From IMG/VR virus record IMGVR_UViG_3300025669_000162, positions 1 to 27,689 of that record: a DNA stretch of 27,689 bases. One strand, 5' to 3'. The first letter of the stretch is position 1; each line of letters starts with the position of its first letter. Both the position numbers and the translations under genes were made by a program. Below the pieces are notes generated by a model, which had not been told where the DNA came from, did no database searches, and was given only the letters and a program-made list of their open reading frames with translations. This DNA is from a virus. This document shows, in pieces, positions 559-26,632 of this stretch.

Positions 559-957
559 TTATAATATACCAGATTTCTGAGCTTTGAGATAGTCTGAAAT
601 AGCGTTAAGGATCGCGCCGACCACGATCCCGATTGCTATTCCAATACCTCCGCTTTCAAGGATCAGGGTGATACGTTCCGCTTGCCAGGATTGCTCGGCC
701 TTTTTCGATGAGTCTTTTATATCGCTTATTTCCTGCCTGAAGATCTCGATTGATATCTCTGCCACTTCGTATAGCTTCCCCTGCTCGATTAGCTTCTTGT
801 CCTGCGCTCTTCGCTCCGTCTCGAATTGCTCGAAGGTTCTGTCGAGTTCCGCTTTTTGCTCGTCCGAGTAACACCATTCCGCTGACAACCGCGCCGAGAA
901 TGAAAAGAAGAGCACCACCGACAATATAAAGAATACCTTTAAGTTTCGACATTTCAT
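559..957 (-). CDS. Probable spanin-like envelope protein (outer ORF of a nested pair)
   Basis: 132 residues from the ATG at 957, which overlaps the stop of the holin-like gene (ATGA) and has GGAG six bases upstream. Residues 1-26 look like a signal peptide or membrane anchor (basic start, then VFFILSVVLFFSFS). A charged coiled-coil-like stretch fills about 30-100, and a glycine-rich hydrophobic segment (GGIGIAIGIVVGAILNAI) lies near the C-terminus. The 98-codon ORF at 656-952 lies wholly inside it in another frame. Size, coiled coil and nesting after endolysin and holin recall Rz/Rz1 spanins, which fuse the two membranes at lysis. There is a Cys after SAEW, but Trp at -1 does not make a normal lipobox, so this is not a standard lipoprotein o-spanin. 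Confidence 0.6.
   Translation of the reverse strand: MKCRNLKVFFILSVVLFFSFSARLSAEWCYSDEQKAELDRTFEQFETERRAQDKKLIEQGKLYEVAEISIEIFRQEISDIKDSSKKAEQSWQAERITLILESGGIGIAIGIVVGAILNAISDYLKAQKSGIL
656..952 (-). CDS. Spanin-like inner-membrane protein nested in another ORF
   Basis: 98 residues. Residues 4-29 form a strong N-terminal transmembrane helix (ILYIVGGALLFILGAVVSGMV), followed by a long basic and polar helical region with regular Arg/Ala/Glu spacing (about 31-88), as in type II i-spanins. Its ATG at 952 is five bases inside the start of the 559-957 ORF, so one Shine-Dalgarno (GGAG near 965) could serve both. The whole gene lies within that ORF in a different frame. Either or both frames may be translated; the anchored, helical pattern of this one is the more spanin-like. 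Confidence 0.6.
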   Translation of the reverse strand: MSKLKGILYIVGGALLFILGAVVSGMVLLGRAKSGTRQNLRAIRDGAKSAGQEANRAGEAIRSGRDINRDLQAGNKRYKRLIEKGRAILASGTYHPDP

Positions 958-3649: not shown

Positions 3650-5551
3650 TTACCACCACCTTGATCTATTTAAGCTTGTCGCGTCTTCGTCATCGATCAG
3701 CCCGTCTGTATCTGTCCAGAATCCCCACGTCTCGAACGCATAGTTCTTTTGAGCTTCTGTCCAGTCTTTATCATAAGCCGTAACAGCTGCGCCGCCAAGA
3801 AGCGTAGGGAATGAAAGATCATCGTCTGTCCAGAAACCGACTCCAGCGCCGATACCTTTCAAGTCGTTGACGATGAAACTCATTTCGTTTGTTTTGAAAT
3901 TCTTGAGAATCGAAAGCAGATCGACTCGTCTCTCAGAAAGCCAGGCAATGTCTGCGTCTTCTCTTCGTCGTCTGAAAGAAAGAATCATCTGATCGCCCAT
4001 GTTCTTACTCGCGAACTGTAGATTCGTAACGTATGAGATCTCAGCGATCCCGCTCTCGTACAGCATTTTCAATCTGTCGAGCCAGACCTTCGCCCCGCCC
4101 TCTGTCGATAGCAAGGTCCCAACCGTTCGGCTTTTCGTTATGTCATAGATTCGTTCTGTGTCGGTTGAGCTTGTCGTCTCGTAGGCGTAAGTATCAGCTA
4201 CCCATTTCTTAACGTACCCACAGCGAAAGATCTGTCTGATCTTGCTTGTCAATGCCACGGCTTTGAATGATCCGTCTTTTATATCGAGATCAGAAACAAT
4301 GTCGAGATCCGCTTCTGCGATAGGTGTGAATACTTTGACAGCGAAATCACCATCGTTGTCGAGATAGAATGTTCCAAGACACGACTTCATGAGATCGCCG
4401 ATTGCATTCATGATCGGTTCATATTCGTTCATAACGAGTCCGCAGGGATACGATTCTGCTTTTGTGATAGCCAAAGTCTTCGCGTCTGTATCCCAATCTG
4501 AATCTGAAAAGCCCTCAAGCTCAAGCAGCTCCTCGAGGATATCAATCGGGTTCTCGATTAGAACACTACTCGCGTCGATGAATCCCGAAACGTCCGCGGT
4601 AACTGGATCCCCTGCTGTGTAGTCTGTCGCTGCAATCGTGAACGTACCATCTCCCACCGTCACACTCACAACCGTCTTCGAGATTTCGTTCACGTATGCT
4701 GCGGTGACATTCTCAATATCGTGTGTCGTCGTGTCCGCGATCTTGAACGTGTAGTTCACCGGGGTCGGGCTTTCGTCTCTGTTCGTGCAAACAGCTGGCA
4801 TCTTCTTTACTTTGCCCCACACATGAGGAATCGGCTTGCCTACGTCTTCGGCGTTAAGATCTGAATAGTCTGCTGTCGCGAATGTATCGAAATCGAGCGA
4901 TGAGGTGAGCTGTTCTTTCTTATCTTGAAACGTGAGAGACATTGTTTTGAGAGTGAATTCCTTTTGTGTAATGATCCCGTCGAAAACCGAAACATATTCT
5001 GTATAGGGTAGATCTTCGCCACCGAAAAGAATGTTGAGCTGTTTGTTTTCCCACGCCCAAGATTGGAATATATTATCGAACTCTCCGTCACCGTTTGCGA
5101 GAACGATACTGCCGGAGCTTATGATCGATACTCCCCAAAATATATCTTGCTTCGTCTGTCGGATGTTCGGCACAGATTGAAGAGCTGGCTGATAGAAATG
5201 ATCGTTGAATGTCTTGGCATCGTTCGAGTAATAGACTTTATAATTTGCGACTACTGTATTCGTGCTGAGAGTTGTCCCGGCGCCCCCGGCCACATGAACG
5301 TACAGTTTCGACCCGTCATAATAATTGGAACTCGGATTCGCAATACATAACGCCAGTGAAGTTCTATTTACATATCGCACCCCGTCAACGAAGACCGTTT
5401 GAACGTCGATCCCTTCACCTATCGCATTATAAAAAACCGTGTCCTCTTGCTCTGTCCAGTCTGTAATGTGCTCCGAAGGATATATCTCGACAAGAAAAGT
5501 GAACTGCGCCGATATCTGAGAAGTCAAAGCTGCAAGGGTAGTTATGCTCAT
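3650..5551 (-). CDS. Tail hub / tip protein downstream of the distal tail protein
   Basis: 633 residues starting within the stop of the previous gene (ATGA). It follows tape measure and distal tail protein, where siphoviruses place the hub (gp27-like/Tal) protein. The N-terminal part is beta-rich. Around 270-340 there is an Ig-like beta segment, including VSVTVGDGTFTIAATDY. At about 340-420 a helical segment (IDILEELLELEGF, IMNAIGDLMKSCLG) resembles the part of hub proteins that compares local structure units. The C-terminus is rich in Trp and acidic residues and carries GFWTDDD and GFWTDTD, which look like two short copies of the same peptide. No peptidase motif is seen, so it seems structural. 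Confidence 0.65.
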   Translation of the reverse strand: MSITTLAALTSQISAQFTFLVEIYPSEHITDWTEQEDTVFYNAIGEGIDVQTVFVDGVRYVNRTSLALCIANPSSNYYDGSKLYVHVAGGAGTTLSTNTVVANYKVYYSNDAKTFNDHFYQPALQSVPNIRQTKQDIFWGVSIISSGSIVLANGDGEFDNIFQSWAWENKQLNILFGGEDLPYTEYVSVFDGIITQKEFTLKTMSLTFQDKKEQLTSSLDFDTFATADYSDLNAEDVGKPIPHVWGKVKKMPAVCTNRDESPTPVNYTFKIADTTTHDIENVTAAYVNEISKTVVSVTVGDGTFTIAATDYTAGDPVTADVSGFIDASSVLIENPIDILEELLELEGFSDSDWDTDAKTLAITKAESYPCGLVMNEYEPIMNAIGDLMKSCLGTFYLDNDGDFAVKVFTPIAEADLDIVSDLDIKDGSFKAVALTSKIRQIFRCGYVKKWVADTYAYETTSSTDTERIYDITKSRTVGTLLSTEGGAKVWLDRLKMLYESGIAEISYVTNLQFASKNMGDQMILSFRRRREDADIAWLSERRVDLLSILKNFKTNEMSFIVNDLKGIGAGVGFWTDDDLSFPTLLGGAAVTAYDKDWTEAQKNYAFETWGFWTDTDGLIDDEDATSLNRSRWW

Positions 5552-8178
5552 CTTTGCTCTCTGAAAACAAGATCTCTGAGATTGAACATCGGTGTATTTT
5601 TGTTTCTGTTGAAAACATTGTTGCCTACCAAATACCCGTACACTGTTGACGAATAGAGTTGATCCTCGAATGAGATATAGAACGGCGTATTGTTCTCCAC
5701 TTCGTCGAGCATATCTTCATAGCCGACTTTCGTTGTGTTGTTGTAATACTGATCGAGAGGATCAACAGAGAGCAACCACTCTTTGAGCTTCTGCTTCTTG
5801 TTGAAATACGCTGCGCCTGATTGCGTGACCATGACAGTCGAACGGTTCAGCTGCGTTTTGCGATTGAATGAGATCGTGTTCGTCTGCTTCCCTGCTGGCT
5901 CGAAATACTCTCCCGCCCATATTCTACCGAGCTCTGATTTGTCGAGTGTTCTATCGTGCCAGTAGAGTTGGAGGGTTTTATATAGCTTCGGTCCGGTTAC
6001 GGCTACGGAATCGAAATAAATTATCTCACTTATGGCGAATGTCGCATCCATACTAACATCAAGCGACATCCCGGTTGCGTTTGCGCTGAACGTACCATGC
6101 ACCGTTATAATTTCAAACGCATTCTCCAAAGTGCCAGTGGATTGAGCTACTACCGCTTGTGCTGCGCCGGAAATACTTTGCAAAAGCCGAACAATTACAT
6201 CCGTACCCTTCCCTGTCTGCACGGCTGGAGTGTAGACCTTTACTGCGAATATATAACTTTCCCCCGGTAAAAATCCGTGCATATCTGTTGTGTCCGCAGT
6301 ATCGCAAAACCGCCACCTCGCCCCTGTTCCTGCGGCATTGTTTTTTGTCATTTTGATTGCAAGACTTCCTGCCGCTACTTGTGTTGTTGAAAACGTCCCG
6401 GAAGCATTAAATAAACTTGGCGTTATTTCTCCGCGCACCATCGGGGGTGTGAGTTCTTCGAGAGAGATATCGTCAACATAAATATATTCGTTTGCCGCAG
6501 CCGCACTTACGATTGTCAATCTCAATGCAAAACTAGCGATAGTGCTATCTGCCTGAAAAATAATTTGCAAGGTTTCGAACGCATCTTGAGTTGTCGGCAA
6601 CGCATTAGTCGTGACCCATGCCGCAGATACATATTCACGTATTGCGAGCCGCACTTCATTCGCCAACGGACCACCCGATGAAGGAACATACATCTTGCAC
6701 TCTGCCTTATACCATCTTCCTGCCGTGAGTCCTCTAAGATCGGCAACGTCAAGCGCATCGTGCAGATATACATCGACCTGCCCCCCGAACGCCGCTGTTG
6801 TTTTCACTATCTTGAGAGAATACGTCCCTCCGTTTGCTTGAGACGATGATAGCTCCACGGTTGCGTTAGTAGGCGTTATTTGATCTTCACCTCGAATAAC
6901 CGGAAAGGCGACTTCTTCAATCTCGATGTTGTCAGTATAAAAGAATTCCGTATCGGCTGCCGTTCCGGTAGCGAACACCCCCAAGCGAAACCCTGTTGCT
7001 GTTGAAGGCAACGTGAGCCAGTATTCGATAGTTTTCCATATGTCCAGTACTGAGGGGCTTCGCCTGATGTCTACCCATGCCCCGCTGTTGTAATATTGAA
7101 TAGCAATATCCGCTTCCCCTACAGCCATTCCGCTTGCAGTAGTGACAAGAATATCCATGGAAAGTTTATATATTCGACCTGGAATCATCCCATGTAAATT
7201 TGTTGTCCCGGTATCGTCTGCGAGATACACTGTTGAAGCAGTCCCTGACGCAATCGCTTTCGTATGCTTAAAACTGTACGTGCCACCGTTGCTTTCTTCT
7301 GCCGATCTTACCCATGTACAATTATCAATAGTTGCCGAAAGTTCGTTCTTCATCGCGGGGGTAGTTGCAGATTCGCAATCGCCCCTATCTATCATATCTC
7401 GCCAAGCATTCCCGCCTTCACAGTCTCCGTTGTCTATGAACTCTGTCGGCACACCTTCGCAGTCTCCACCTATGATAATCTCCGGTGCCGAGGGTTCGAG
7501 AGAGATCAAGCCCGATGTGATAGTGACCGTTGTACTCAACGCGATCCCTTCTTCGAGATTATACGGTCCGCTGAATAAGCCTGATTGTGTCGCTCCTCTC
7601 AATATCATCGTACCTGTCTCTGTCAGATTGTGGTTGTCAACGATGAACGCTGAGACTGTCTGAGTCGCTGAAAGATCGATATTGATTTCGTGCTCGTTGC
7701 CGAGAACCGCGACTGTCGATGTATAGATTCTGTCCGCGGAGTTGTACCCTGTCGCGTGATCGAATCCAAGCAGAACGGCAATTGTGTCGTCTTTGGTGTC
7801 GGGATCGTCGAACGATAATCTGAGAAACCCGTCACTGGTTGACGAACGCTTGATCGTGAATTTGCTTCCCGCATACGAGCAGTAGTGATCGGTGTAATCC
7901 CCGGTAGCATTCAAGCCCGATTGAATCTTCGCTGCGAGAGTTGCCCCGGTATAAGTCGCAGAGGGAATTGCATACGAGAGAGCATCTGCTGATTTCGAAT
8001 TGTGAAAAGGTAACAGATTATTCCGCGCATTGACTACGAAATCGTCCTCTGTTCGCCAGATCTTAGACTTGATTCCGTTCTGTATATTTGTGGCCGGTAG
8101 AGTTGTTAGCTGTGAACTGAACACCGAGACTGTGCCGCCGTCAACCGCATTATGATACTTGAAGTGAATTATACTCAT
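5548..8178 (-). CDS. Large distal tail protein with three internal jelly-roll modules
   Basis: 876 residues, ATGA-coupled to the tape measure gene. The place directly after the tape measure is that of the distal tail (Dit) protein. The N-terminal ~225 residues and C-terminal ~145 residues (from KLYKTLQLYWHD) look like the two halves of a tail protein. Between them lie three repeated beta modules at about 233-423, 427-577 and 580-728. Each has a G(G/S)x(Y/L)(S/A)xK strand (NGGTYSFK, NGGTYSLK, AAGSLAIK), a turn of the type hGhhxGxxY (MIPGRIYK, LTAGRWYK, FLPGESYI), and an end like FYTDNIEIEE, IYVDDISLEE or IYFDSVAV. This pattern is that of carbohydrate-binding jelly rolls (CBM_4_9-like). Three GDCE motifs (238-241, 251-254, 266-269) precede or open the first module. 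A glycan-binding, host-attachment role is likely but not proven. Confidence 0.7.
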   Translation of the reverse strand: MSIIHFKYHNAVDGGTVSVFSSQLTTLPATNIQNGIKSKIWRTEDDFVVNARNNLLPFHNSKSADALSYAIPSATYTGATLAAKIQSGLNATGDYTDHYCSYAGSKFTIKRSSTSDGFLRLSFDDPDTKDDTIAVLLGFDHATGYNSADRIYTSTVAVLGNEHEINIDLSATQTVSAFIVDNHNLTETGTMILRGATQSGLFSGPYNLEEGIALSTTVTITSGLISLEPSAPEIIIGGDCEGVPTEFIDNGDCEGGNAWRDMIDRGDCESATTPAMKNELSATIDNCTWVRSAEESNGGTYSFKHTKAIASGTASTVYLADDTGTTNLHGMIPGRIYKLSMDILVTTASGMAVGEADIAIQYYNSGAWVDIRRSPSVLDIWKTIEYWLTLPSTATGFRLGVFATGTAADTEFFYTDNIEIEEVAFPVIRGEDQITPTNATVELSSSQANGGTYSLKIVKTTAAFGGQVDVYLHDALDVADLRGLTAGRWYKAECKMYVPSSGGPLANEVRLAIREYVSAAWVTTNALPTTQDAFETLQIIFQADSTIASFALRLTIVSAAAANEYIYVDDISLEELTPPMVRGEITPSLFNASGTFSTTQVAAGSLAIKMTKNNAAGTGARWRFCDTADTTDMHGFLPGESYIFAVKVYTPAVQTGKGTDVIVRLLQSISGAAQAVVAQSTGTLENAFEIITVHGTFSANATGMSLDVSMDATFAISEIIYFDSVAVTGPKLYKTLQLYWHDRTLDKSELGRIWAGEYFEPAGKQTNTISFNRKTQLNRSTVMVTQSGAAYFNKKQKLKEWLLSVDPLDQYYNNTTKVGYEDMLDEVENNTPFYISFEDQLYSSTVYGYLVGNNVFNRNKNTPMFNLRDLVFREQR
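5995..7482 (-). repeat. Three tandem jelly-roll coding repeats inside the distal tail gene
   Basis: The repeats are at protein level; DNA identity between copies looks low. Copy one runs about 7482-6910, copy two 6900-6448, copy three 6441-5995, each 150-190 codons. They share the strand around NGGTYS(F/L)K, the turn before a YK/YI strand, and the closing strand ending in (D)(N/D/S). Diverged tandem copies point to old duplications kept by selection, as in carbohydrate-binding arrays that gain avidity. Confidence 0.6.
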
Positions 8179-10814
8179 ACGTCCGCCCTTATCGCTTGCG
8201 GGTTGATTGCCAGGCGACCTTCATTCGCTGCGCTTTCAACGAAGTCAACCGTGATCTGTCCGACGATCTGCCCGTCAAGCATAACGGGTGCCGCTACGGC
8301 TTCGATGTTTGCGGTGATTGACCGCCCTTCGTTGATAGCTTCGAGTAGTCCGGCGTTCTGACTTGCTTGACCTTCGTTGACAATGAACTCACCTGCTGAT
8401 GCTCGTATCGTGTTCTGATCGACTCCTGATTTCCCGCCGACCCATCCACCTTCCGCGAATGTAGGAAGAGGTGCAGTTCCAACGGCGATACCTTGTATTA
8501 AGCCTATACCAGCAGCAGCTACCGAAAGAGCGATACCAGCGACACCACCCGGAGACGCGAGAAACCCGATGATCGCTTGAGCTGTTTTCAGAGCAATATC
8601 GAAAATAGCGAATGCTTTGTTCGCCTTTGCTTCCTTTATTTTGATAGCGAGTATTTCATCTGACTTCTCTTTTTCGATTCTCTTCGTCGCCTCTGCGTCC
8701 CCTTCTGCTGCTTCAAGACGATCTTTGTATTTTTCGTTGATCTCGCTGATTTCTTTATTCGCGTTTGCCGTGAGTAGCTTTGACACCGAATTGGCAAGCC
8801 CCGCGACCATATTCCATGCGCTTTGGATGATCTTTTTCTTTCGATCTTCTGCAACTTTCGTCGCTGCAATGTCTGCCTGTCGATCAGCTTCTTTGCTATC
8901 AGCGACTAATTGATCGATAGCTATGAGATCCGTTGCCAGCTGTGCTGCTTGTTCGAGTCTGGTTTCATCTGCTGCGAGTTGATATTCCTCATTTGTAGCC
9001 AGTATTGCGAGAGCTTTCTCTTCCGCTTCTGCGTTCATTTCTTGAATCATTTCGTTCGTGGCGATAGCTGCTTCGAGTCTTCTCTCTTCCGCTGCGATCT
9101 GTATGTCGGCGATCTCTTTTGCAGTCAAGCCAAGAGCTTTCAACCGCTCGATCAGACTTTGAATAGTTTTGTCTGTGACTTCAAACGGTTCGTCGATTTC
9201 TTCTGAACTCAAACTGAGCAACGTCTCAAGAGCTTCCTCGAGGATTTTCTTTTGCTCTGCGACAGCATCGAACGATTCACCCGTTGCTTCTGCGAGTTCG
9301 ACTTGCTTCTGAATCAGAATATTTTCGTTTGCGATAGTAGCTTCGATCTCTTCGTTCCAGCTCTGCCACGTTCTCGCAATGGTCGCCGTTCCTTCATTAC
9401 CGTCGAGAGTCACGCCTTCGAGAAGCTCGAACTTCCCAATAGTTTCGTCGAGTATTCCAAGAGACTTCTGCAGTAGTTCGATTCTCTGTTCGTGAATCGG
9501 AATCGCTTTCTTCTGAGCTGCGATTTCTGCTTCTGTCATCCCAACGAGAAAGCCTCTTTCGTCGATGTATGAAGCTTGATCTTTCGCTGCTCGTTCTGCG
9601 AACGCGAGACTGTCAAGTTCCATTTCGAGTTGCATTTCTCGTTCAGCTCTCATCGTTTCGAGTTTATAGATTCGCTGCGCTGTTTCTAAGTTGAGAGCAT
9701 TCGCGACTCGATTGATCCCGATTACTGTTCCCTTGATTATCTCGTTATTCTCGTTTGCGAGAGCGATATTATCTTTCTGAACCCCTTTCCATTTGATGTA
9801 TTGAATGACGAACGCACCCAACGCGACGACCCCTGCAGCTATTAAGCCCCCGGGAGACATAAGCGTTTTGAATAGCGGTATCAATACTCGAACTGCCTGT
9901 CCCATTTTCCCCATTGCCAAGAGAGCGGGTCCGAGAGCTGCTGCGAGAGCTGCGACCTTGAGAATCAGTTTCTTCGTTCCATCATCGAGTGACATAAACT
10001 TCGCGACCATATCTTTCACTTTCGTCGCTGCGTCTTTGATCAATGGAATCAGAAATTGTCCAAGCTCGACAGCGAGATCTTTGATATCGTTTTTCGTGTC
10101 TCGAATGATGTTCGCTGCGCTGTCCTGAGTTCTCGCGTAATCCCCGACAGCATTCTTGCTTTGATCTGTCGCCATTTTCAGAGCTGTGAGTGCTTTCGCT
10201 TGCAGCAGACTCGCGCCCTCTGCGTCCATGTAATGTTCGACAAGCTCTTTGTATTCGTCTGAGTCTTGTCTGATTACTACACCGAGAGCTTTCGCCTGTT
10301 CTGATTCTCCGAGCATCGCTTTCGTAAGAGCTTTACTTGCGCCCTCTGCGCCACCTGAGAAGTTCGTGAACGATGCAAGATCAGCTGCGAGTTCGTTCAC
10401 TGCGAGAGATAGATCGAGAGCTGAGTCTTGAGTGAACCCGAACCCTGTCAGCAGATCTCCCGTATCTCCGAGCAGCTGTTGAGCTTGCGTCTGTGCGAAC
10501 CCGAACCCCTCGACGAGTCTGTCTGTCGCTGCTGTTGCACGTTCACCGATACTGCTGAAAACGACCTCGAACTTTTGCGCTGTCTCTTCTGCGTCGATTG
10601 CAGTCTTCGCCATAGCTGCGCCGATTGCGAGAATGGGAGCAGTAATGAACAGCGTCATTTTCTTTCCCGTCTTGGCGAGAGAGTCTGCCATGTCGCTGAA
10701 TTTCTTCTGAATCGTCTTTGTCGATTTGGTCGTCTTCTTTACTGCATCATCCAAACCTTTGTTGAAATCAGCGTCATCGAGTTTCAAAAATGCTCTGAGT
10801 GTTCCTACTGTCAT
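8175..10814 (-). CDS. Tape measure protein
   Basis: 879 residues, the joint longest gene with its neighbour, ATGA-coupled to the chaperone extension frame and to the distal tail gene. The N-terminus (VGTLRAFLKLDDADFNKGLDDAVKKTTKSTKTI) is the usual start of siphovirus tape measures. Hydrophobic stretches occur near 53-70 (LFITAPILAIGAAMA), 275-345 and near the C-terminus (about 760-800). Long Ala/Glu/Lys-rich coiled coils fill 385-750. The protein sets tail length and leaves through the tube at DNA entry. At about 0.15 nm per residue it predicts a tail near 130 nm, a rough estimate from the general rule. No lysozyme or peptidase motif is visible. Confidence 0.9.
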   Translation of the reverse strand: MTVGTLRAFLKLDDADFNKGLDDAVKKTTKSTKTIQKKFSDMADSLAKTGKKMTLFITAPILAIGAAMAKTAIDAEETAQKFEVVFSSIGERATAATDRLVEGFGFAQTQAQQLLGDTGDLLTGFGFTQDSALDLSLAVNELAADLASFTNFSGGAEGASKALTKAMLGESEQAKALGVVIRQDSDEYKELVEHYMDAEGASLLQAKALTALKMATDQSKNAVGDYARTQDSAANIIRDTKNDIKDLAVELGQFLIPLIKDAATKVKDMVAKFMSLDDGTKKLILKVAALAAALGPALLAMGKMGQAVRVLIPLFKTLMSPGGLIAAGVVALGAFVIQYIKWKGVQKDNIALANENNEIIKGTVIGINRVANALNLETAQRIYKLETMRAEREMQLEMELDSLAFAERAAKDQASYIDERGFLVGMTEAEIAAQKKAIPIHEQRIELLQKSLGILDETIGKFELLEGVTLDGNEGTATIARTWQSWNEEIEATIANENILIQKQVELAEATGESFDAVAEQKKILEEALETLLSLSSEEIDEPFEVTDKTIQSLIERLKALGLTAKEIADIQIAAEERRLEAAIATNEMIQEMNAEAEEKALAILATNEEYQLAADETRLEQAAQLATDLIAIDQLVADSKEADRQADIAATKVAEDRKKKIIQSAWNMVAGLANSVSKLLTANANKEISEINEKYKDRLEAAEGDAEATKRIEKEKSDEILAIKIKEAKANKAFAIFDIALKTAQAIIGFLASPGGVAGIALSVAAAGIGLIQGIAVGTAPLPTFAEGGWVGGKSGVDQNTIRASAGEFIVNEGQASQNAGLLEAINEGRSITANIEAVAAPVMLDGQIVGQITVDFVESAANEGRLAINPQAIRADV

Positions 10815-11164
10815 GGTAGCCAGCCCAACCCTTTGAGTTGATCGAGTAGCTGATCGCTGCTTTGTTTCTTCGCTTGAAACTTTATTCCAGTATAGTGTGA
10901 GATCATCATTTCTATCCGATCAATCTTGACTGAGCCGGGGGGTGTTTTTTCCCATTTCGAAACGAGCAGATTCAACTCTCGCCACGATAACTCATCTTGA
11001 ATAGTCCCGACTGTGTAACCGGGGTACGCCATCATAATAATATGATAGGCATCCCACTCGTCTAATTGACTCCCGGCTCCGGTGTCGTTTCCGGAATTGT
11101 GAAGTCGTCTGGTATCGTCTTCATCAGGTTCTTGAGTCGGGATGTGAAAAAAGGGAGCAGCCAT
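10811..11164 (-). CDS. Downstream frame of the tail assembly chaperone (gpT-like), read by -1 frameshift
   Basis: This frame is -1 relative to the chaperone at 11062-11541 and ends in the tape measure start (ATGA). An ATG exists at 11164 but lacks a good ribosome site. The frame is open further upstream, to about 11239, but that part is likely a shadow. In lambda and many siphoviruses the first chaperone (G) is extended by a rare -1 shift into T to make GT, which recruits the tape measure. Slipping at 11146-11155 would join residue 132 of the first protein to HIPTQEPDEDD and give a 243-residue fusion. The extension ends with a helical region (LLVSKWEKTPPGSVKIDRIEMM) that looks like real protein. 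Confidence is high for coding, moderate for the exact slip point. Confidence 0.75.
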   Translation of the reverse strand: MAAPFFHIPTQEPDEDDTRRLHNSGNDTGAGSQLDEWDAYHIIMMAYPGYTVGTIQDELSWRELNLLVSKWEKTPPGSVKIDRIEMMISHYTGIKFQAKKQSSDQLLDQLKGLGWLP

Positions 11165-11541
11165 GCCATTTGATTCTGTTCTGCGAGAGCTTTCACGATA
11201 TTGATCATGAGCCTGATCGAGAGAGCCTCTTTGAGCCACTCAAGTTCCGGGGGTTCATAATCGTCATTCTTATATTCGAAAACAAAATCAAAAAGACGTT
11301 TCACGATTGTGAACGTCTGCTCTGAATACTGAATGACCATCGCTGATAGATCGAGTGTTTCAATCCCCGACTGTGATAGGAGACTGCTCACGTTGTCCAG
11401 TTCCTTCGTCAACAACAGTGCCAGATTCTTTGCTCTTCCTATCGACATTTCGTTCATTTGAAACTTTGTTCCATTCAGCGAAATACTCTGCGCAGACTCG
11501 CTCAATTTTTTCCACACTCCGTTTTCTGAAACCTTTGCCAT
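11062..11541 (-). CDS. Tail assembly chaperone (gpG-like)
   Basis: 159 residues. It starts at the ATG at 11541 with GGAGG about 12 bases upstream; a second ATG at 11460 is possible. It lies just before the tape measure gene and is overlapped by a -1 frame joined through the slippery run at 11146-11155, the defining layout of lambda G/GT-type chaperones. The protein is mostly helical and acidic towards its C-terminus (TIPETTPEPG), also typical. Its first 182 bases overlap, out of frame, the end of the MAF-like gene, which is much more than the usual few bases. Confidence 0.75.
   Translation of the reverse strand: MAKVSENGVWKKLSESAQSISLNGTKFQMNEMSIGRAKNLALLLTKELDNVSSLLSQSGIETLDLSAMVIQYSEQTFTIVKRLFDFVFEYKNDDYEPPELEWLKEALSIRLMINIVKALAEQNQMAWLLPFFTSRLKNLMKTIPDDFTIPETTPEPGVN
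11146..11155 (-). promoter_or_regulatory. Slippery sequence for -1 ribosomal frameshift in the tail chaperone
   Basis: On the minus strand the run CCCTTTTTTC is read as CCT TTT TTC in the zero frame (Pro130, Phe131, Phe132). Two XXXYYYZ heptamers overlap here, CCCTTTT and TTTTTTC, both allowing tandem -1 slippage with full re-pairing. It lies about 28 codons before the chaperone stop and opens directly into the -1 frame that reaches the tape measure gene. Confidence 0.7.
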
Positions 11542-12541
11542 TATTTTCTATTACCTCCGCGAGATTTTCTTTCGGTAACTCAGTAATGATCCCCTCTGAG
11601 CAATCATATATCTGAGCCTGTTCGATTCTGTATACTGCCATGAGCGCGAGTTTATATTCCATCTGCTCTTCTGTTGTCTTAACGCCGTTGTTGGCTATGT
11701 GCAAAACTCTTCCCGCGATCTCGTCTGTCATTCCAAACTTCGGCTCTTGGCTTTCCCATGTGTCGTCTGTCGAGTTATGAGACCACGTTCGGGCTCTGTT
11801 CTGATCGCCGGGGAAACCGAAGTCAACGCCGACGAGAAAGAAAGGACCGAACCCCATAAAGTTTGCGACTTGCAAAATATTATTGACTACGCAACCAGCG
11901 TTGAGAATCGTCGTGCTGATCATCGGGTAGAGAGTGGGATTGACTGCCTCGAATAACTCGCTGCCGAAGATCTGTTTCTTGATCACTTGCACGATCTCTT
12001 CAAGCGTCATTCCATCCTTCATAGATTCAGGCTCGACTTGAGATATATGATTCATGAGATAATAGATTTTCTTGCCAGGCCAATTTTCTATTACGTCTGT
12101 ATCAACGCCCGGGTGAGTGACAAGTGTATCGTCTGCTACGTCATAACCTTCGAGAAACGCTTCCCAATGATGACCGGCGTCATAGTTGAAAATGTAGTCT
12201 GTTCGAATCCCCTCATGCTTGCACAGTCCGACGAGAGTCTCAGACAACATGACCGGAATTTCTGACTTTTTTAATAGTTCGATGTTCTTGTCGAGAGAAG
12301 GTCCCGCGCCCAAGATGATTGCGGGACCCCTCTTGATTCTACCTTTCGGCCAATCTTTGTTCGTGAAGTTCGGCTGATAATCTTTGAGTGCCGATATCTT
12401 CGGCGACCCGGATGCGAATTCGTCAACGATAGTGCGAAGGTTCCATGCTGTCTGATAAACCCAAGTTTGAAACCACGAGCGCATAACGCCCACATTTCTT
12501 TCATTATGTGTCTGAGAAATCCCTTCGCCCTTCTTGATCAT
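11360..12541 (-). CDS. MAF/DUF115-type protein, putative nonulosonate glycosyltransferase
   Basis: 393 residues starting right after the tail tube stop, with GGAGG six bases before the ATG. The core carries the family's glycine motif GPAIILGAGPSLDKNIELLK (about 72-91), a further conserved block around GIRTDYIFNYDAGHHWEAF, and the later block ILQVANFMGFGPFFLVGVDFGF (about 222-245). This is the MAF/MptE-like (DUF115, PF01973) fold. In flagellated bacteria MAF proteins move pseudaminic or legionaminic acid from CMP-sugars to flagellin; MptE-like relatives are pterin pyrophosphokinases. Between tail tube and chaperone, a glycosyltransferase acting on a tail protein is attractive but inferred. The last ~58 residues are hydrophilic and overprint the chaperone gene. 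A cytidylyltransferase at 25686-26435 could supply the donor. Confidence 0.7.
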   Translation of the reverse strand: MIKKGEGISQTHNERNVGVMRSWFQTWVYQTAWNLRTIVDEFASGSPKISALKDYQPNFTNKDWPKGRIKRGPAIILGAGPSLDKNIELLKKSEIPVMLSETLVGLCKHEGIRTDYIFNYDAGHHWEAFLEGYDVADDTLVTHPGVDTDVIENWPGKKIYYLMNHISQVEPESMKDGMTLEEIVQVIKKQIFGSELFEAVNPTLYPMISTTILNAGCVVNNILQVANFMGFGPFFLVGVDFGFPGDQNRARTWSHNSTDDTWESQEPKFGMTDEIAGRVLHIANNGVKTTEEQMEYKLALMAVYRIEQAQIYDCSEGIITELPKENLAEVIENNGKGFRKRSVEKIERVCAEYFAEWNKVSNERNVDRKSKESGTVVDEGTGQREQSPITVGD

Positions 12542-13318
12542 TTACGCCTCCACTCCCCATAGAAATAGCTGTTGAACAGGGTTTCTCGACTCATCTGCTA
12601 ACAGTTTGAATGTCATCGGTACGCCACCGAACTCAGCTGCCATTTGAATGGCAACGTCCGATGCGCCGATCTTTTTTGCTCTCCATGCGTGAAACATGAG
12701 TGCTTTCCCGTTCTCAAGATCATGCACGACTTTCAGCTCTGCTTCGAAATCGACGAGCTTTCCACCCACGTACACTACGTCCGCGGCTGCAGACTGCGTG
12801 TATTGAATATGAACTACGTCATTGTCAGAGATACTCCCACCTGCTTCCCTGGCAATCGTTCCTGCCGAGTTGTCTGAGGTGTAGTCTGTGCTGTCCGTGT
12901 ACTGAGTTTCCCAATCGCTTGAGAAAACCTTCACTGTTCCAGAAGTCCAGCCCGTCCGATCGACAGTCGCATTCGACGTGCCGGACATAAGGTGACTTTC
13001 CATGAATATGAAGCCTGAGAGCGTTACAGTCGCAGTCCGAGCAATCGGATCGACTGTGCTGTTTGAACCCCACTGTGAAGCGGAGTCGTAAACATATTGA
13101 AGTTGAGACGGTTTCAGATCTGCGACAACAACGTCAACTTCGCAAGTTTCGCCGGTTTTCCTCAGAATGATATCTGAGCCTGTGTCTTCGGCTTTCCCTG
13201 CGACTGTATCTTTTGTATATCGAATCGTCGCCATCGACTTAGGTCTCCCGAGTCGAACTGCATTCCAATACAGCTGACAGGGACCGATAGGAACTCTTGA
13301 GGCAGTAGTCTGGCTCAT
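12542..13318 (-). CDS. Major tail (tube) protein
   Basis: 258 residues, ATGA-coupled to the tail terminator gene. Beta-rich, without signal or enzyme motifs. Position (terminator, tube, chaperone, tape measure) and length are right for a siphovirus tube protein. Residues about 118-178 (from TVDRTGWTSGTVKVFS to DNDVVHIQYTQ) form a separable segment with the TDYTSDNSAGTI pattern seen in Ig-like or strand-pair insertions of phage surface proteins. The flanks (SMATIRYTKDTVAGKAEDTGSD and DFEAELKVVHDLENGKALMFHAW) look like the tube fold itself. The insert would project outward, a possible place for decoration. Confidence 0.8.
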   Translation of the reverse strand: MSQTTASRVPIGPCQLYWNAVRLGRPKSMATIRYTKDTVAGKAEDTGSDIILRKTGETCEVDVVVADLKPSQLQYVYDSASQWGSNSTVDPIARTATVTLSGFIFMESHLMSGTSNATVDRTGWTSGTVKVFSSDWETQYTDSTDYTSDNSAGTIAREAGGSISDNDVVHIQYTQSAAADVVYVGGKLVDFEAELKVVHDLENGKALMFHAWRAKKIGASDVAIQMAAEFGGVPMTFKLLADESRNPVQQLFLWGVEA

Positions 13319-13722
13319 ATAGTTTCCCTCCGATAATGTAAATCAAATCGCGCACCCCGGCCATAAGCGTCGAACTCCTCGCTGAACGTCTCCCCGGTTC
13401 TCCCGGCAAAGATCATTCTGAATCCTGTCGCAAACGGTTTCTGGTGCAATAAATAAACAATGCGGTCAAGTATTGTTTCTTGCGAATCATCTTCGGTCCA
13501 TGCAGTGACTATCACTTCACCCACTGTCACCAAAGTTGTCGCGTCGAAAGTCTGATCTGCGAGTCCAGAATCATACACAATCACCACTTCGGGGAATGTG
13601 GGCTTTTCTGGCACTCGTTCTGTAAAGGTCTGAAAAGGAGCTGCAGTCGGCACGTCGAGCAGAGCAAGATACGTTGTGTCTGCGACGAGTCGATCATAGA
13701 CTGCTGTCTTGACTGTGTTCAT
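13315..13722 (-). CDS. Tail terminator / completion protein
   Basis: 135 residues, ATGA-coupled to genes on both sides. It begins MNTVKTAVYDRLVADTTYLALLDV, the usual start of gpU/DUF3168-like tail terminator proteins (a short helix followed by small beta sheets), and includes a PEVVIVYDSG strand and a VYLLHQK helix. In siphoviruses this protein caps the tail tube and joins it to the head. The tail tube gene follows directly. Family from pattern and order, no catalytic residues. Confidence 0.7.
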   Translation of the reverse strand: MNTVKTAVYDRLVADTTYLALLDVPTAAPFQTFTERVPEKPTFPEVVIVYDSGLADQTFDATTLVTVGEVIVTAWTEDDSQETILDRIVYLLHQKPFATGFRMIFAGRTGETFSEEFDAYGRGARFDLHYRRETI

Positions 13723-14144
13723 CTAATCGCCCTCGTAATGTACTGAGCCAACGTGTACAGAAACTTCCCTGAGTAATACAGCAGGGCTGGCTTCATGAAC
13801 GGAAAGGCTCGGTGTGTCGATCCCGGTTTCGGTGCTTCGATGTATTCAGCATAAGACGCGACAGCTTTCACTTCGATTCCTGCGCCCTTCGGGCTGAATA
13901 GAACTTTCCCTGCGTTCATTGAGTTTATCAATACATTGCTCCACGTATAGAAACGATCATCAGGATGAGCTTTCGTCACCGACTTCGGTAAGCTCTTGCC
14001 CCTGTCGTGATTTCCCTGCATGTGCTGAATCACTTGATTCGCGCCCACTTCCAGGGCTGTCTTCGTTTGAGCTGTTGTCAGCATCTTTACGATTGACACG
14101 TTTCCCGCGAACTCTCGAATCCCGTTGTTTTCCAACTTCGTCAA
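13719..14144 (-). CDS. HK97 gp10-like head-tail connector or minor tail protein
   Basis: About 141 residues. No ATG fits well: TTG at 14144 (GGGAG only one base away) or TTG at 14135 (ten bases from the same site) are the candidates. Features of the gp10 family are visible: a helical start (TALEVGANQVIQHMQGN), then the extended segment with VASYAEYIEAPKPGSTHRAFPFMKPAL near residues 95-122. The motif YAEYIE...PFMKPAL is common to that family. It overlaps the previous ORF (13960-14253) by 185 bases and the next gene by four. The start is uncertain, the identity fairly secure. Confidence 0.7.
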   Translation of the reverse strand: MTKLENNGIREFAGNVSIVKMLTTAQTKTALEVGANQVIQHMQGNHDRGKSLPKSVTKAHPDDRFYTWSNVLINSMNAGKVLFSPKGAGIEVKAVASYAEYIEAPKPGSTHRAFPFMKPALLYYSGKFLYTLAQYITRAIR

Positions 14145-14601: not shown

Positions 14602-14858
14602 TGCGCCAGATCCCCGACATATTCGGATATATCGATCCCGAACTCGTCAACGCCCAACGCAATGTGCCTCACGTCTTCATACGGTTCCGACTCCACAGCC
14701 AACCGATACTGCTCTCGCGCTTTCAGCAACGTGGACAAGATCTGACTTTTTCTCACGGTCTTGTCTCCGATCTTATAGTCGGCTATAGAATCGGGCGATG
14801 CCACCAGCGTTGCGATCTGAGTATCAATAGCTGCAAGAATAGCCGTAACCGTTGCCAT
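14598..14858 (-). CDS. Small head-tail connector protein
   Basis: 86 residues starting one base inside the capsid stop codon. Highly helical, with alanine-rich start MATVTAILAAIDTQIATLVASPDSI and a middle DYKIGDKTVRKSQILSTLLKAREQY that recalls gpW-like or small adaptor proteins. The neighbours are the major capsid gene and the probable stopper gene, so a connector role is likely; the exact family is not recognised. Confidence 0.55.
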   Translation of the reverse strand: MATVTAILAAIDTQIATLVASPDSIADYKIGDKTVRKSQILSTLLKAREQYRLAVESEPYEDVRHIALGVDEFGIDISEYVGDLAQ

Positions 14859-16003
14859 CAGCCGCTACCTACCGACTGTATGACATATCTGTTTGTGATC
14901 GCGCCACAACCGCCCATCCATCGAGCTTTCACCTGATAGATGACATCGCTGTTGAACTCTTGCTCGTTTCCTGGCTTCGCTTGAAAGGTCTGAAGAGGGA
15001 AAACTTCGGTGAACACGAACTGCTTTTTGAAGTCTCCGAGATACCAGTACAACGAGCTTTGCAGCGAATTGACATAGCTACTTGAGATCACCTGTACCTC
15101 ATTGTGCCAAGGGTTCGTCACCCCTTGATTGTAGGTGGCGATCAGAGTCGATTGAGAGTTGATAATCTTGTTCGCAGTTCCTCTCAAGGGAGCACCAACG
15201 AGCAAAATCTTCGGGTCGAACATGATCACTTCACCCTGCTCATCTGTGAATGCAGCTCCAGCGGTGTAGGCAGCATCGAGATCTGTTTCGTCTGCGAGAA
15301 CATCGACGATCTGATTGTCCAGCGTTGCTGTGGTGTACGGATCGGTTGACGTGCTGCTGTACAGAGTCGCTGCTGTGCCAGCTGGTCTCCATGCCGCGTA
15401 GTCGCCGCTGTTGGTGATACCAAGAACCTTGTCGAAGATCTCTTTGTCTTTTCGTATGCTTGCAGACTCTCCGACCTGAGCAGCTCTCATCATCATCTGT
15501 CCGGTCTGATCGAACTTGATCGCTTCCTCGGTCAACGGAACAATTCTGCCCCATTTGCGGTTACGAATCTTGTGGTACTTCTCACCTATCGCCCCGCGAG
15601 TATATTCGATACCCTCGGGAACTTCCATGAGTTCATGGTCGTCGGTGAACCCAACGATAGTCTCGTCTTTCACGCTCGACGGAATAACCGTCACAAGAGC
15701 ATCGGTCATCCCTTGCGCTTTGTTGTACCCTTCTTGAATGACTCTGTTGATCAATGATCCCGTTATCTTGGGGAACATCGTGGAGTCCACAGACTCTTGT
15801 ATCTCGAAATCGCCCTCTTTCAATATGCGATTCGAGATTTCCTTTTCTTTGCCGAGGTTCGGTCTTCCGAGAGCTTCGTAAAGCCCCTTTAGTGAAAACT
15901 CTTTTGTGTCGAACTTCGGGTCGTTGATCCTGTTGATCATTTCTGCGGCGAACCTTTTGTCGCCTACTCTCTCTCGCAGTTCTCCTGCTCGTTTCCAATC
16001 CAT
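14858..16003 (-). CDS. Major capsid protein, HK97 fold
   Basis: 381 residues with GGAG nine bases before the ATG. Pattern of an HK97-type capsid: an N-terminal helical arm (residues 1-75, cut or reshaped at maturation), then IPSSVKDETIVGFTDDHELMEVPEG and the E-loop-like EYTRGAIGEKYHKIRNRKWGRIVPLTEEAI, a spine helix rich in polar residues (about 160-200), and a C-terminal beta region ending in VIYQVKARWMGGCGAITNRYVIQ. It sits after the decoration protein and the protease/scaffold gene, as expected. No sign of truncation. Confidence 0.85.
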   Translation of the reverse strand: MDWKRAGELRERVGDKRFAAEMINRINDPKFDTKEFSLKGLYEALGRPNLGKEKEISNRILKEGDFEIQESVDSTMFPKITGSLINRVIQEGYNKAQGMTDALVTVIPSSVKDETIVGFTDDHELMEVPEGIEYTRGAIGEKYHKIRNRKWGRIVPLTEEAIKFDQTGQMMMRAAQVGESASIRKDKEIFDKVLGITNSGDYAAWRPAGTAATLYSSTSTDPYTTATLDNQIVDVLADETDLDAAYTAGAAFTDEQGEVIMFDPKILLVGAPLRGTANKIINSQSTLIATYNQGVTNPWHNEVQVISSSYVNSLQSSLYWYLGDFKKQFVFTEVFPLQTFQAKPGNEQEFNSDVIYQVKARWMGGCGAITNRYVIQSVGSG

Positions 16004-18308: not shown

Positions 18309-19190
18309 CTAAGCTACATTTATTTGATCAACCCTGAATTCGTCCAAGGGTTCAATCGTGATATAACACTCGCACCACGGATGAGGGGTAGAGGGCGCAC
18401 TTCCCGGGGGATAGTTCCCTGATCCCAATCCGTATAGATCTTGAGTTGCGAGTTCATTACAAATCGGGCAATCAGCCGGCGACCCTGATCGGTTCCATTT
18501 GTTCGAGCGGATCCAATCCTTCCCCTGGGAATACGCTGTCGTGCCGAGCCTGTACGCTCGGTTGCTTTCCGTTACTAACACACGTTGAGCGTTCTTTGCT
18601 GCTGATCTGTACACGCCACGCCCCGGAGGATGCTGTTTGAAGTACAGTCTCCACTTCTTTGTTCGCATATCTGAATTGGGAGACAAAAGAAGTTTTTTCA
18701 TCTTCTGAGCGGTTACATTGAGCGGTGTCTGATCGATCAAATCGGTGATAATTGCTTGACGCATATTCGAGAGAGCGACCTGGTTGATATCCCATACCTT
18801 CCCGCTCAATTTTATCCCATCGACGGTTGTCTCTGCTGCGTCTGTGAGTCGTCTTGAAAGCTCAATGAACTCTTCTGAGCGCATATCGAATACCACTTTC
18901 GTTGCATAGATCTCCGCGGTATCAAGCGTTTTACTCAAACCGAGATTGACAGAAGAGGTCACGTCCTGCTGTACAGTCCGGGATACACTCGCCGAAAGTT
19001 CTTTGACAGTTTGCTCGACTCCGAACAACGTCTCTTGCAGCGTCTTTCCCTTAGAAGTCAGAACGATATTTGCTGTTCTGTTCCCGGCGACGATGTATTG
19101 TCTGTTTAGTCGAGTAACGGAAGCGAGCAGCATTCGTTGCTGCTCTTTTCTTCCAAGTGACATTATCTGTTTGATTTCGGGTTCGATCAT
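18309..19190 (-). CDS. MuF-like minor head protein (SPP1 gp7 family)
   Basis: 293 residues, ATGA-coupled to the methyltransferase gene. Residues about 100-210 carry the central helical part of phage Mu gpF-like proteins (SKTLDTAEIYATKVVF, QALSNMRQAI-type segment, then QRVLVTESNRAYRLGTTAYSQG). The C-terminal half has the family's metal-binding-like end: SPADCPICNELATQDLYG with CPxC, followed by PHPWCECYITI, which brings a His and more Cys. This family lies next to the portal and takes part in head assembly or DNA ejection. No toxin domain is fused to the C-terminus. Confidence 0.8.
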   Translation of the reverse strand: MIEPEIKQIMSLGRKEQQRMLLASVTRLNRQYIVAGNRTANIVLTSKGKTLQETLFGVEQTVKELSASVSRTVQQDVTSSVNLGLSKTLDTAEIYATKVVFDMRSEEFIELSRRLTDAAETTVDGIKLSGKVWDINQVALSNMRQAIITDLIDQTPLNVTAQKMKKLLLSPNSDMRTKKWRLYFKQHPPGRGVYRSAAKNAQRVLVTESNRAYRLGTTAYSQGKDWIRSNKWNRSGSPADCPICNELATQDLYGLGSGNYPPGSAPSTPHPWCECYITIEPLDEFRVDQINVA

Positions 19191-19834
19191 ATCGCCAACT
19201 TTTCTTGTCGCGTGAAATGATATATGCGGTCTGTCATTGCCTTGTGGTAGTCTGCGTCAATCTCAAATCCCATGTATTCGAAGCCCATATCGATACAAGC
19301 TATGATTGAGCTACCGCTACCTACGTGGGTATCAAGTATCTTGTCGCCTTCTTTGGCGTAGTTCTTGAGGAGCCATTTGTATAGGTCTATGGGCTTTTGG
19401 GTGGGATGTATGCGGTGTTCTTTGTTCTTCATATTCTCTTGCAACATACCATGCCACTTGTATTTGAATAATCTTACTGCTGTCTCAAAGGATGTCCACG
19501 CCAGCTCACAATCAGCAAAATCATTCTTGCCGTTGTCCTTATCCCAAACCACCACACAGCTTGTCGGTGGCAAATCAAAATGATTGCCCCCCCATATGAT
19601 GCGGTTTACCGATACCCTATCTATCTCTTGGAAATACGTTTTATTGGGTACGGCGGTATCATTAAACGTGTGGTATTTTTTAGACTCTGCCAAACAAGAG
19701 CGGGTATGATTATTACCACCACCCTGCCCAATCCCATACGGCGGGTCTACTATCGCAAGCTCAAAGTACTTGTCGGGAATATCGGCCATGCCAGCCATGC
19801 AGTCCATTAAATATACTTTATTCAGAGTCAGCAT
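19187..19834 (-). CDS. DNA adenine-N6 or cytosine-N4 methyltransferase, beta class
   Basis: 215 residues from the ATG at 19834, which has GAGG six bases upstream and lies 17 bases inside the portal gene; longer in-frame starts (to 19879) read more of the portal and are unlikely. Motif IV DPPYGIG is at 30-36, an RIHPTQKP helper block at 142-148, and the SAM-binding motif I as DTHVGSG at 168-174. Motif IV before motif I defines the beta group (PF01555). Asp-Pro-Pro-Tyr fits N6-adenine or N4-cytosine methylation. No restriction enzyme is nearby, so it is probably an orphan enzyme guarding phage DNA from host restriction or acting in packaging. Its insertion between portal and MuF-like genes is unusual. 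Confidence 0.85.
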   Translation of the reverse strand: MLTLNKVYLMDCMAGMADIPDKYFELAIVDPPYGIGQGGGNNHTRSCLAESKKYHTFNDTAVPNKTYFQEIDRVSVNRIIWGGNHFDLPPTSCVVVWDKDNGKNDFADCELAWTSFETAVRLFKYKWHGMLQENMKNKEHRIHPTQKPIDLYKWLLKNYAKEGDKILDTHVGSGSSIIACIDMGFEYMGFEIDADYHKAMTDRIYHFTRQEKLAI

Positions 19835-24211: not shown

Positions 24212-24216
24212 ATAAA

Positions 24217-24252
24217 CTCCTGTTTATTTATTTCTCGTAACTGGCAACGAGA
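24217..24252 (-). promoter_or_regulatory. preQ1-I-riboswitch-like hairpin and A-rich tail in the yhhQ leader
   Basis: The leader between dpdA and yhhQ has, in order, a 6-base stem TCTCGT/ACGAGA (24252-24247 with 24238-24233), loop TGCCAGTT, an A-rich stretch AATAAATAAA (24232-24223) and CAGGAG, whose AGGAG is the ribosome site. Loop bases C24244, C24243 and G24241 can pair with G24219, G24220 and C24222 of the tail, giving a compact H-type pseudoknot that would hide the ribosome site. This is the plan of class I preQ1 riboswitches, and the regulated gene fits the ligand. Against it: in the simple fold the loop is short and no free C precedes the closing strand, where the class I ligand-pairing C should be. 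Confidence 0.4.
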
Positions 24253-24258
24253 TATTCA

Positions 24259-25673: not shown

Positions 25674-25702
25674 AATATAGCCTACTCAAAACGGCATTGC
25701 AA
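25674..25702 (-). promoter_or_regulatory. Candidate sigma70-like promoter of the dpdA cassette
   Basis: On the minus strand TTGCAA (25702-25697) and TATATT (25679-25674) are separated by exactly 17 bases. The -35 matches four and the -10 five of six consensus bases. The start of transcription would be near 25667, about 24 bases before the ParB-like ATG. It lies at the end of the cytidylyltransferase gene. Together with the hairpin at 23550-23579 it would make the cassette a separate transcription unit. Confidence 0.4.
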
Positions 25703-26435
25703 CTTCTTTGATGCTCGTTATCTCCCGGTAGCACTTCTGGAAATCCTCGACTGTCTTCGGTCTTCTGCCAAGATGATTATATATCAATTCGAGAATCGCA
25801 AGTTCAAGAGGGTAGTCCACGGTGTTTTTCCAGAGAGATTGCTGTCTGTCTACGAGATCCAGAATATCAACCATCTTCGGTTCATGTAGAAAAGGAACGT
25901 CTTCCACCGCCAGCGGTATTGTCCAGTATTGCGAAGCGTGAAGCTGTCGATATTTCCCCGGTGCAGCATAATAGTATTTCTCATAATCGAGATACCATTG
26001 CTTCGCTTTTATTCCGGTGTGCATGACGAACCCCGCAGGGTCGAACATCGCGGTCGAAGCGTAGACAATGTGATTCGGATCGGTCTTGCAATAGTTGATC
26101 ATTCGCTGCGTCATTCTGTTGTCCATGAACGGAGCATCGCCACAGATATCGAGAATGAAATCAAGCTCGTTCTCGTTGATACATTGCATATGTCGCTCGA
26201 TCAGAATATCCGGATGTCCTCTGGTCAAGCTCACTCCGTAATCTGAGGCGATCTCTTCGAGCGGATCGTCTGACTTTAGATAGGACGTGCAAACGATTAT
26301 GTCGTCGAGCTGGTCAAGCTCCTGCAGCTGCTCGATGAGGTGCGCGAGTATCGGTATCCCCGCGATCTTTGCTATTACCTTGCCAGGGTATCTCTCGCTG
26401 TCGTACCGTGCCGTGATCATTGCTCCAAGTTTCAT
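25686..26435 (-). CDS. SpsF/KdsB-type cytidylyltransferase (CMP-sugar synthetase-like)
   Basis: 249 residues from the ATG at 26435, with AAGGAG five bases upstream and ATGA overlap; an in-frame start 13 codons earlier lies in the previous gene. Nucleotide-binding start MITARYDSERYPGKVIAKIAG (residues 6-26) is the CTP_transf_3 (PF02348) signature. DDIIVCTS (44-51) and LDICGDAPFMD (95-105) supply the second and metal-binding blocks. The closest named relatives are SpsF-like enzymes of spore coat polysaccharide and CMP-KDO or CMP-sialic acid synthetases. Likely reaction: CTP plus sugar acid gives CMP-sugar and pyrophosphate; the sugar is not known. A MAF-like transferase at 11360-12541 could be the user. 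Confidence 0.8.
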   Translation of the reverse strand: MKLGAMITARYDSERYPGKVIAKIAGIPILAHLIEQLQELDQLDDIIVCTSYLKSDDPLEEIASDYGVSLTRGHPDILIERHMQCINENELDFILDICGDAPFMDNRMTQRMINYCKTDPNHIVYASTAMFDPAGFVMHTGIKAKQWYLDYEKYYYAAPGKYRQLHASQYWTIPLAVEDVPFLHEPKMVDILDLVDRQQSLWKNTVDYPLELAILELIYNHLGRRPKTVEDFQKCYREITSIKEVAMPF

Positions 26436-26632
26436 GTTTTCTCCTTTTCTTCGATTGCTATTTGTATCTGACAACCCATCCCGTGAGATATAGCCAGACC
26501 GCAGCCGCCCGATGTGATTTCCTTATACCAATCTATCTCATCGCACAGACTTTCTATTGCTTTCGCTGCGTCATAATCCACCTTCCCGACTCTGAAATCT
26601 TCCCTTATTTCCAATATCTCTTGATCTTTCAT
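26432..26632 (-). CDS. Small hypothetical acidic protein
   Basis: 66 residues, AAGGA before the ATG and ATGA overlap with both neighbours. Acidic helical start (KDQEILEIREDFRVGKVDYDAAKAIESLCDEIDWYKEI), then TSGGCGLAISHGMGCQIQIAIEEKEKT, a glycine/cysteine segment that might hold two metal-binding Cys (GCG and MGC). No family recognised. The regular coupling supports it being expressed. Confidence 0.65.
   Translation of the reverse strand: MKDQEILEIREDFRVGKVDYDAAKAIESLCDEIDWYKEITSGGCGLAISHGMGCQIQIAIEEKEKT

Follow-up and report, generated by a model that had tools for sequence, protein, structure and literature searches.

What does a gene for a putative CMP-nonulosonate glycosyltransferase do between the tail tube gene and the tail chaperone genes of a virus? 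The question is raised by a 27,689-nucleotide stretch of viral DNA (IMG/VR record IMGVR_UViG_3300025669_000162), the whole of which was analysed and is referred to below as the window. Its minus strand carries, at 11360..12541, a Maf-like gene (PF01973/DUF115), the assignment of which draws on Pfam, an AF2 model, orthologues in two related contigs (L112 and L113) and a tree.

The gene and its place in the tail module

Along the minus strand the genes run as follows: tail completion, tail terminator, major tail protein, Maf-like protein, chaperone ORF, −1 frame chaperone ORF and tape measure. The tail completion or Neck1-like gene (13719..14144; phrog_5, E=2e-4) and the tail terminator gene (13315..13722; phrog_78, E=1.4e-5) precede that of the major tail (tube) protein, which has an Ig-like domain (12542..13318; phrog_807, E=8e-10) and the TAA stop codon of which abuts the Maf-like ATG at 12541 with zero gap (TAAATG). 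Next on the same strand come a tail-assembly chaperone-like ORF (11062..11541; its ATG is preceded by an SD-like GGAGG, and L112 has the same arrangement), a second chaperone ORF in the −1 frame (10811..11239; phrog_8018, E=4e-4) and the gene for the tail length tape measure protein (8175..10814; phrog_1293, E=1e-16). Position and overlapping frames suggest the chaperone role of the two ORFs. The slippery sequence CCCTTTTTT is at 11155-11147 (minus), where they meet in the −1 frame, and the tail chaperone is probably made by lambda G/GT-type programmed frameshifting there. A sequence-only reading of the window had announced a MAF-like (DUF115) gene at 11360-12541 between tail tube and tail chaperone; the ORF is real (PF01973, E=3.1e-21), and both of its flanks are as that reading had them.

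The Maf-like ORF specifies 393 amino acids, of which residues about 16-337 form the core. Its last 60 codons share 182 bp with the chaperone ORF in a different frame; the overlap region is still alignable to the proteins of relatives, and approximately the last 36 residues have no support from relatives. That the overlap is an assembly frameshift is disfavoured, as the L112 gene overlaps its chaperone ORF in a like manner (by 80 bp) and the protein can be aligned into the overlap.

Scanning with the window tail protein yielded two relatives, L112 and L113, with tail proteins 53% and 49% identical to it, and in both a Maf-like gene directly follows that of the tail protein, the same slot as in the window. 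Only the cut-off start of the gene is present in L113; the L112 protein is 41-44% identical to that of the window. The position is thereby established as conserved, and the Maf-like gene belongs to the tail cluster of the window's virus group. A cytidylyltransferase gene, which the window does have (below), was not found in these two contigs, both of which are fragments. For the window and L112 genes pN is 0.39 and pS, which is saturated, is 0.79; this excess of pS, together with the conserved slot, marks the window ORF as a selected coding gene rather than a chance one. A nearer pair of Maf-like genes, those of L011 and L020, is under purifying selection (dN 0.004 versus dS 0.088). Pattern scans for promoters and terminators did no better than on shuffled sequence.

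Several other features of the window deserve mention. At 23588-25643 (minus) are genes for a DpdA-like transglycosylase (phrog_887, E=1.5e-43) and a queuosine-precursor transporter (TIGR00697, E=1e-45) together with an ORF that looks ParB-like and gave no clear family match, and from these genes it is probable that the phage DNA carries a 7-deazaguanine modification. An N4/N6 DNA methylase gene (19187-19879, minus; PF01555, E=9e-17, second half of the profile only) adjoins the portal gene in the head module. Nested ORFs in different frames at 559-1014 and 656-952 (minus), near an M23 peptidase-like ORF (1145-1777), resemble overlapping spanin genes. The terminase (21599-23068, minus) has as its top match in the phage collection that of the Methanosarcinales virus BK063673, at 33.5%, barely above those of bacterial phages.

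Family, motifs and predicted fold

Residues 69-244 match PF01973 (MptE-like, formerly DUF115/Maf_flag10) with E=3.1e-21 and 76.3 bits, the curated cut-off being 34.6 bits, so that membership of the family is established; PHROGs gave no match for the protein. The motif GPAIILGAGPSLDKN, which the sequence-only reading had singled out, is present at residues 72-86. The Maf motifs GAGPSLDKN, NAGCVVNN...LVGVDFGF and DCSEG are all there, the last being the window's version of the Maf (N/D)(A/C)(T/S)(E/D)G stretch that reads NCSDG in the Maf of known structure, 5MU5.

Two AF2 models, one from an alignment of 13 sequences (mean pLDDT 70) and one from 37 (mean pLDDT 75), establish the predicted fold. 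They fit 5MU5 with Z 21.3 (3.6 Å, 259 residues) and Z 21.9 (2.7 Å, 234 residues) respectively, and MptE (8SD5) with Z 13-14. The part of the model that aligns (to 5MU5 238-514) is residues 16-337; a helix and a low-confidence tail make up the remainder. The CMP-sialyltransferases CstII, ST8SiaIII and ST6GALNAC2 follow at Z about 9-10, and structures past these related folds reach Z 4.9 or less. Pfam gave no match of the protein to the GT42 family of CstI/CstII type; phrog_4603, a sialyltransferase, is matched weakly, and by the relatives L013 and L016 only.

As the Pfam family name includes MptE, the 6-hydroxymethyl-7,8-dihydropterin pyrophosphokinase, a pterin diphosphokinase or other auxiliary metabolic enzyme has to be considered. 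A profile of viral and bacterial relatives does match MptE of M. jannaschii (E=3e-11), the fold is a related one (Z 13.0 over 192 residues in the 37-sequence model), and the closest phage-collection terminase, at 33.5%, is from a Methanosarcinales virus. However, the fit to Maf is far better (Z 21.9, 2.7 Å), and the same profile matches 5MU5 with E=3e-23 and runs through NCSDG, whereas its match to MptE ends short of the DCSEG region: the window chain continues past the end of MptE into this Maf-specific C-terminal stretch. MptE has an acidic stretch, DLDGD, with a role in metal/phosphate binding. In the one MptE sequence compared, that of 8SD5, the segment PDIIVSDLDGD aligns to TDYIFNYDAGHH of the window protein, with NYDAGHH in place of DLDGD. 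The relatives found are, moreover, all viral or bacterial Maf-like proteins. A pterin kinase is disfavoured by the better Maf fit, the missing DLDGD and the reach of the profile, to the point of being very improbable.

The MAF identity offered by the sequence-only reading thus stands for the fold and motifs and falls short for the flagellin enzyme as a whole. The three-domain architecture of flagellin Maf is absent, the 393 residues affording neither the extra N-terminal Rossmann-like domain nor the C-terminal helical domain, and most bacterial relatives are about 580-690 amino acids long. With these domains missing, the modelled protein is best described as Maf-like and single-domain, not as a flagellin Maf.

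In the orthologues the donor-site loop is altered, to GAGISLEKL in L112 and GAGTSVDKL in L113, so the Pro and Asn of GxGPSLxxN are not constant in the window lineage. Their loss, and the location of the gene between tail tube and chaperone, would suit a degenerate, non-catalytic Maf-like domain that helps to assemble the tail or is a minor virion protein. Against this, every Maf motif checked is intact in the window protein, the wider clade retains GAGPSLDKN and a TEGG stretch, and relatives have the sugar pathway described below; such a role for the protein is improbable, and an active transferase is the reading pursued here.

Relatives, sugar genes and the tree

Among 50,697 cultured-phage records (INPHARED) tblastn with the window protein and two viral relatives found no credible homologue. 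Searching viral and genome contigs at the protein level with the window sequence alone turned up no relative either, because short exact peptides were used. The DNA pattern for G(A/S)GPSLDKN was more productive and gave 13 stretches in 12 viral contigs, all coding for Maf-like proteins. Four contigs each have two or three Maf-like genes as well as genes for NeuB (E about 1e-78) and CTP_transf_3: G005, G010 and G011, which belong to the tail clade described below, and G007, a relative of these. In G005 two are directly before the gene for the major capsid protein (PF25209) and one is directly before that for the major tail protein; the layout of two capsid-side paralogues and one tail-tube-side gene recurs in G010 and G011. 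Unlike in these three, the capsid gene of the window (14858..16003, minus; PF25209, E=1.7e-22) has no adjacent Maf-like paralogue. In G023 and G024 the order is SU10-type capsid (E=3e-51), Maf-like, small ORF and NeuB, and in G019 it is Maf-like, NeuB and CTP_transf_3. The viral Maf-like genes of L009, L012, L015 and L183 adjoin no identified capsid or tube gene.

Between its head and tail genes G005 has a cassette of cytidylyltransferase, radical SAM/B12, methyltransferase, NeuB and TIM-barrel protein genes. Cassettes of this composition, the TIM barrel being of AP_endonuc_2 type, are found between capsid and tail genes in L010 (7045-11284), L022 (3610-7957) and L023 (17-2834). The members vary by virus; the TIM barrel comes after NeuB in each and may belong to the sugar pathway. 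The tail-side Maf-like proteins of L013, L014 and L016 have an additional N-terminal domain of about 100-130 amino acids (969-1400, 5900-6271 and 5213-5600, respectively) that is missing from the window protein and perhaps serves in acceptor recognition.

The co-occurrence of Maf-like and sugar genes in relatives is established. PF01973 is present in 16 of 37 NeuB-bearing viral contigs (4 known and 12 of 33, with 9 of the 12 above the cut-off), as against none of eight control viral contigs picked by an arbitrary 16-mer, a small set, and none of four terminase relatives; the contrast is large, though the control is small. A scan for DpdA relatives as a bigger control gave one contig only. As 21 of the 37 NeuB-positive contigs have no detected PF01973, NeuB also serves other ends in viruses.

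The window itself has a cytidylyltransferase gene of the CTP_transf_3 type (25686..26474, minus; PF02348, E=1.2e-16), KdsB/SpsF-like at the superfamily level: NCBIfam KdsB-type subfamilies score below their cut-offs, and PDB 6oew and KdsB are matched. Situated 13 kb from the Maf-like gene in a separate module, it is a possible maker of the CMP-sugar donor. Compared by tblastn at 1e-3 with the NeuA/SpsF-like genes at the remaining viral loci it matched only itself and a near-identical copy, and so is related to their enzymes at the superfamily level only. NeuB is absent from the 27.7 kb of the window, which is a fragment of the genome.

In a tree of 43 domains, in which the placements of the long branches L009, L186, L187, L183 and L012 were left unused, the five tail-tube-adjacent proteins, that of the window included, form one clade with support of 99/99, and eight capsid-adjacent paralogues of related viruses form their own (97/95). 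Membership of the window protein in a supported clade is thus established. In the window lineage the Maf-like gene follows the tail tube gene, and in L013, L014 and L016 it precedes it; since the proteins form one clade and yet are encoded on opposite sides, the adjacency of Maf-like and tail genes has survived rearrangement. The window major tail protein is homologous to the L016 tail protein encoded beside a Maf-like gene (29% identity). As the tail and capsid proteins of window-type and G005-type viruses are homologous, the two are not fully independent cases, and divergence from one ancestral association describes them best; G023 and G024, with a different capsid family, are a separate case.

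These pairings bear on two further explanations. The enzyme might modify the host surface, be it flagellin, pilin or a cell-surface glycan, with superinfection block or serotype change as the outcome and its place in the tail module incidental. The known substrate of Maf is flagellin (PMC11339370), and the NeuB viral contigs without PF01973 indicate that phages put such sugars to other uses. But the gene is inside a structural cluster, with a zero-gap junction on one side and a same-strand overlap on the other, the paralogues that pair with capsid and tail tube genes fall in separate clades, and the protein has none of the extra Maf domains, among them one similar to flagellin chaperones (PMC11339370); modification of the host is unlikely. 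The second explanation, that the transferase decorates phage DNA, for instance the 7-deazaguanine modification to which the DpdA-like and YhhQ genes of the window point, draws on the presence there of the DpdA-like and queuosine-precursor transporter genes and on the existence of DNA-hypermodifying phage glycosyltransferases (Pyle 2024, as cited in PMC12619734). Its Maf-like gene is, however, in the tail cluster, away from the DNA-modification genes, the partners in relatives are capsid and tail genes, and the Maf and sialyltransferase fold relatives listed above act on proteins and glycans, so that DNA is a far-fetched target.

A candidate virion glycosyltransferase among known systems

The reading that accommodates these observations, and which we consider fairly probable, is a CMP-nonulosonate transferase devoted to a protein of the virion, the tail tube being the likeliest. 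For the window enzyme we infer catalytic activity, donor, acceptor and biological benefit alike. The enzyme would be made together with the tail tube protein and would use a CMP-activated sugar of nonulosonic type (sialic, pseudaminic, legionaminic or Kdo-like). This sugar would be drawn from the host, with the phage cytidylyltransferase at 25686-26474 to activate it or add to the supply; relatives have NeuB besides. C. botulinum Maf (CbMaf) takes Neu5Ac and Kdo as donor sugars (PMC11339370), and spsF, a putative cytidylyltransferase gene of B. subtilis, is needed in a legionaminic acid pathway (PMC7439481); sugars of either class could therefore serve. Ser/Thr of a newly made virion protein would receive the sugar in the cytoplasm, in parallel to the action of Maf on flagellin; the likeliest acceptor is the major tail (tube) protein, the gene of which directly precedes that of the enzyme. 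The window tail protein is rich in Ser/Thr (as much as 35% over residues 121-160), which would fit O-glycosylation but is not diagnostic of it. A sugar coat on the tail may alter surface charge, adsorption or recognition. The sequence-only reading had also raised the idea that the tail tube or some other protein of the virion is the target, and the context (tail-tube clade, capsid paralogues, NeuB and cytidylyltransferase) lends this weight, with the tube as candidate acceptor.

Judged from their genes, these viruses probably sugar-coat their own particles. A more specific picture, of a widespread uncultured tailed-virus group with its own NeuB and cytidylyltransferase, separate Maf-like transferases for capsid and tail tube, and a sialic-acid-type coat, is put forward tentatively, its chances being slightly under even. 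If true, tailed phages have dedicated enzymes that put sialic-acid-like sugars on capsid and tail tube, and the flagellar filament and the phage tail, two protein tubes, would be modified by one enzyme family. Small single-domain glycosyltransferase candidates with a neighbouring acceptor gene would then be at hand, making acceptor choice by Maf-type enzymes directly testable, and PF01973 genes in viromes should not be called pterin kinases.

With the Maf flagellin glycosyltransferases (5MU5 of Magnetospirillum magneticum and CbMaf of Clostridium botulinum) the window protein has in common the central domain, the predicted fold, the GxGPSL loop and the LVGxD and (N/D)(A/C)(T/S)(E/D)G stretches. 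Unlike them (about 600-670 amino acids, with N-terminal Rossmann-like and C-terminal helical domains), it is without both outer domains, and its gene is in a phage tail operon, adjoining the tube gene. To CstI/CstII (GT42) and mammalian sialyltransferases it is related in predicted fold and, putatively, in the CMP-sialic acid donor class, but at 13-15% identity CstI/CstII are too far for a family match, and their acceptors are glycans, not proteins. MptE is of the same Pfam family with a similar core fold and differs in having DLDGD and in stopping ahead of the Maf-specific stretch.

The sequence-only reading had spoken of a new kind of phage decoration. This was too broad, as mycobacteriophage capsid and tail tube subunits carry glycans (Freeman 2023, as cited in PMC12619734 and PMC12363180). 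What appears new is the combination of a Maf-type enzyme and a nonulosonic-acid pathway carried by the phage, and no report of DUF115/Maf or nonulosonic-acid pathways for phage virions was found in the open-licence literature; virion glycosylation would then reach past mycobacteriophages, with a new enzyme class and sugar class. As with the mycobacteriophages Che8, Corndog and Myrna of those citing papers, a glycosyltransferase encoded by the phage would be predicted to modify subunits of capsid and tail tube. The gene is carried with virion genes, adjoining that of the major tail protein in the window and tail or capsid genes in relatives. Unlike in the mycobacteriophages, the putative enzyme here, from a virus known only as a metagenomic contig, is of Maf type and is accompanied in relatives by NeuB and cytidylyltransferase, and in these viruses the tail and capsid enzymes are separate paralogues.
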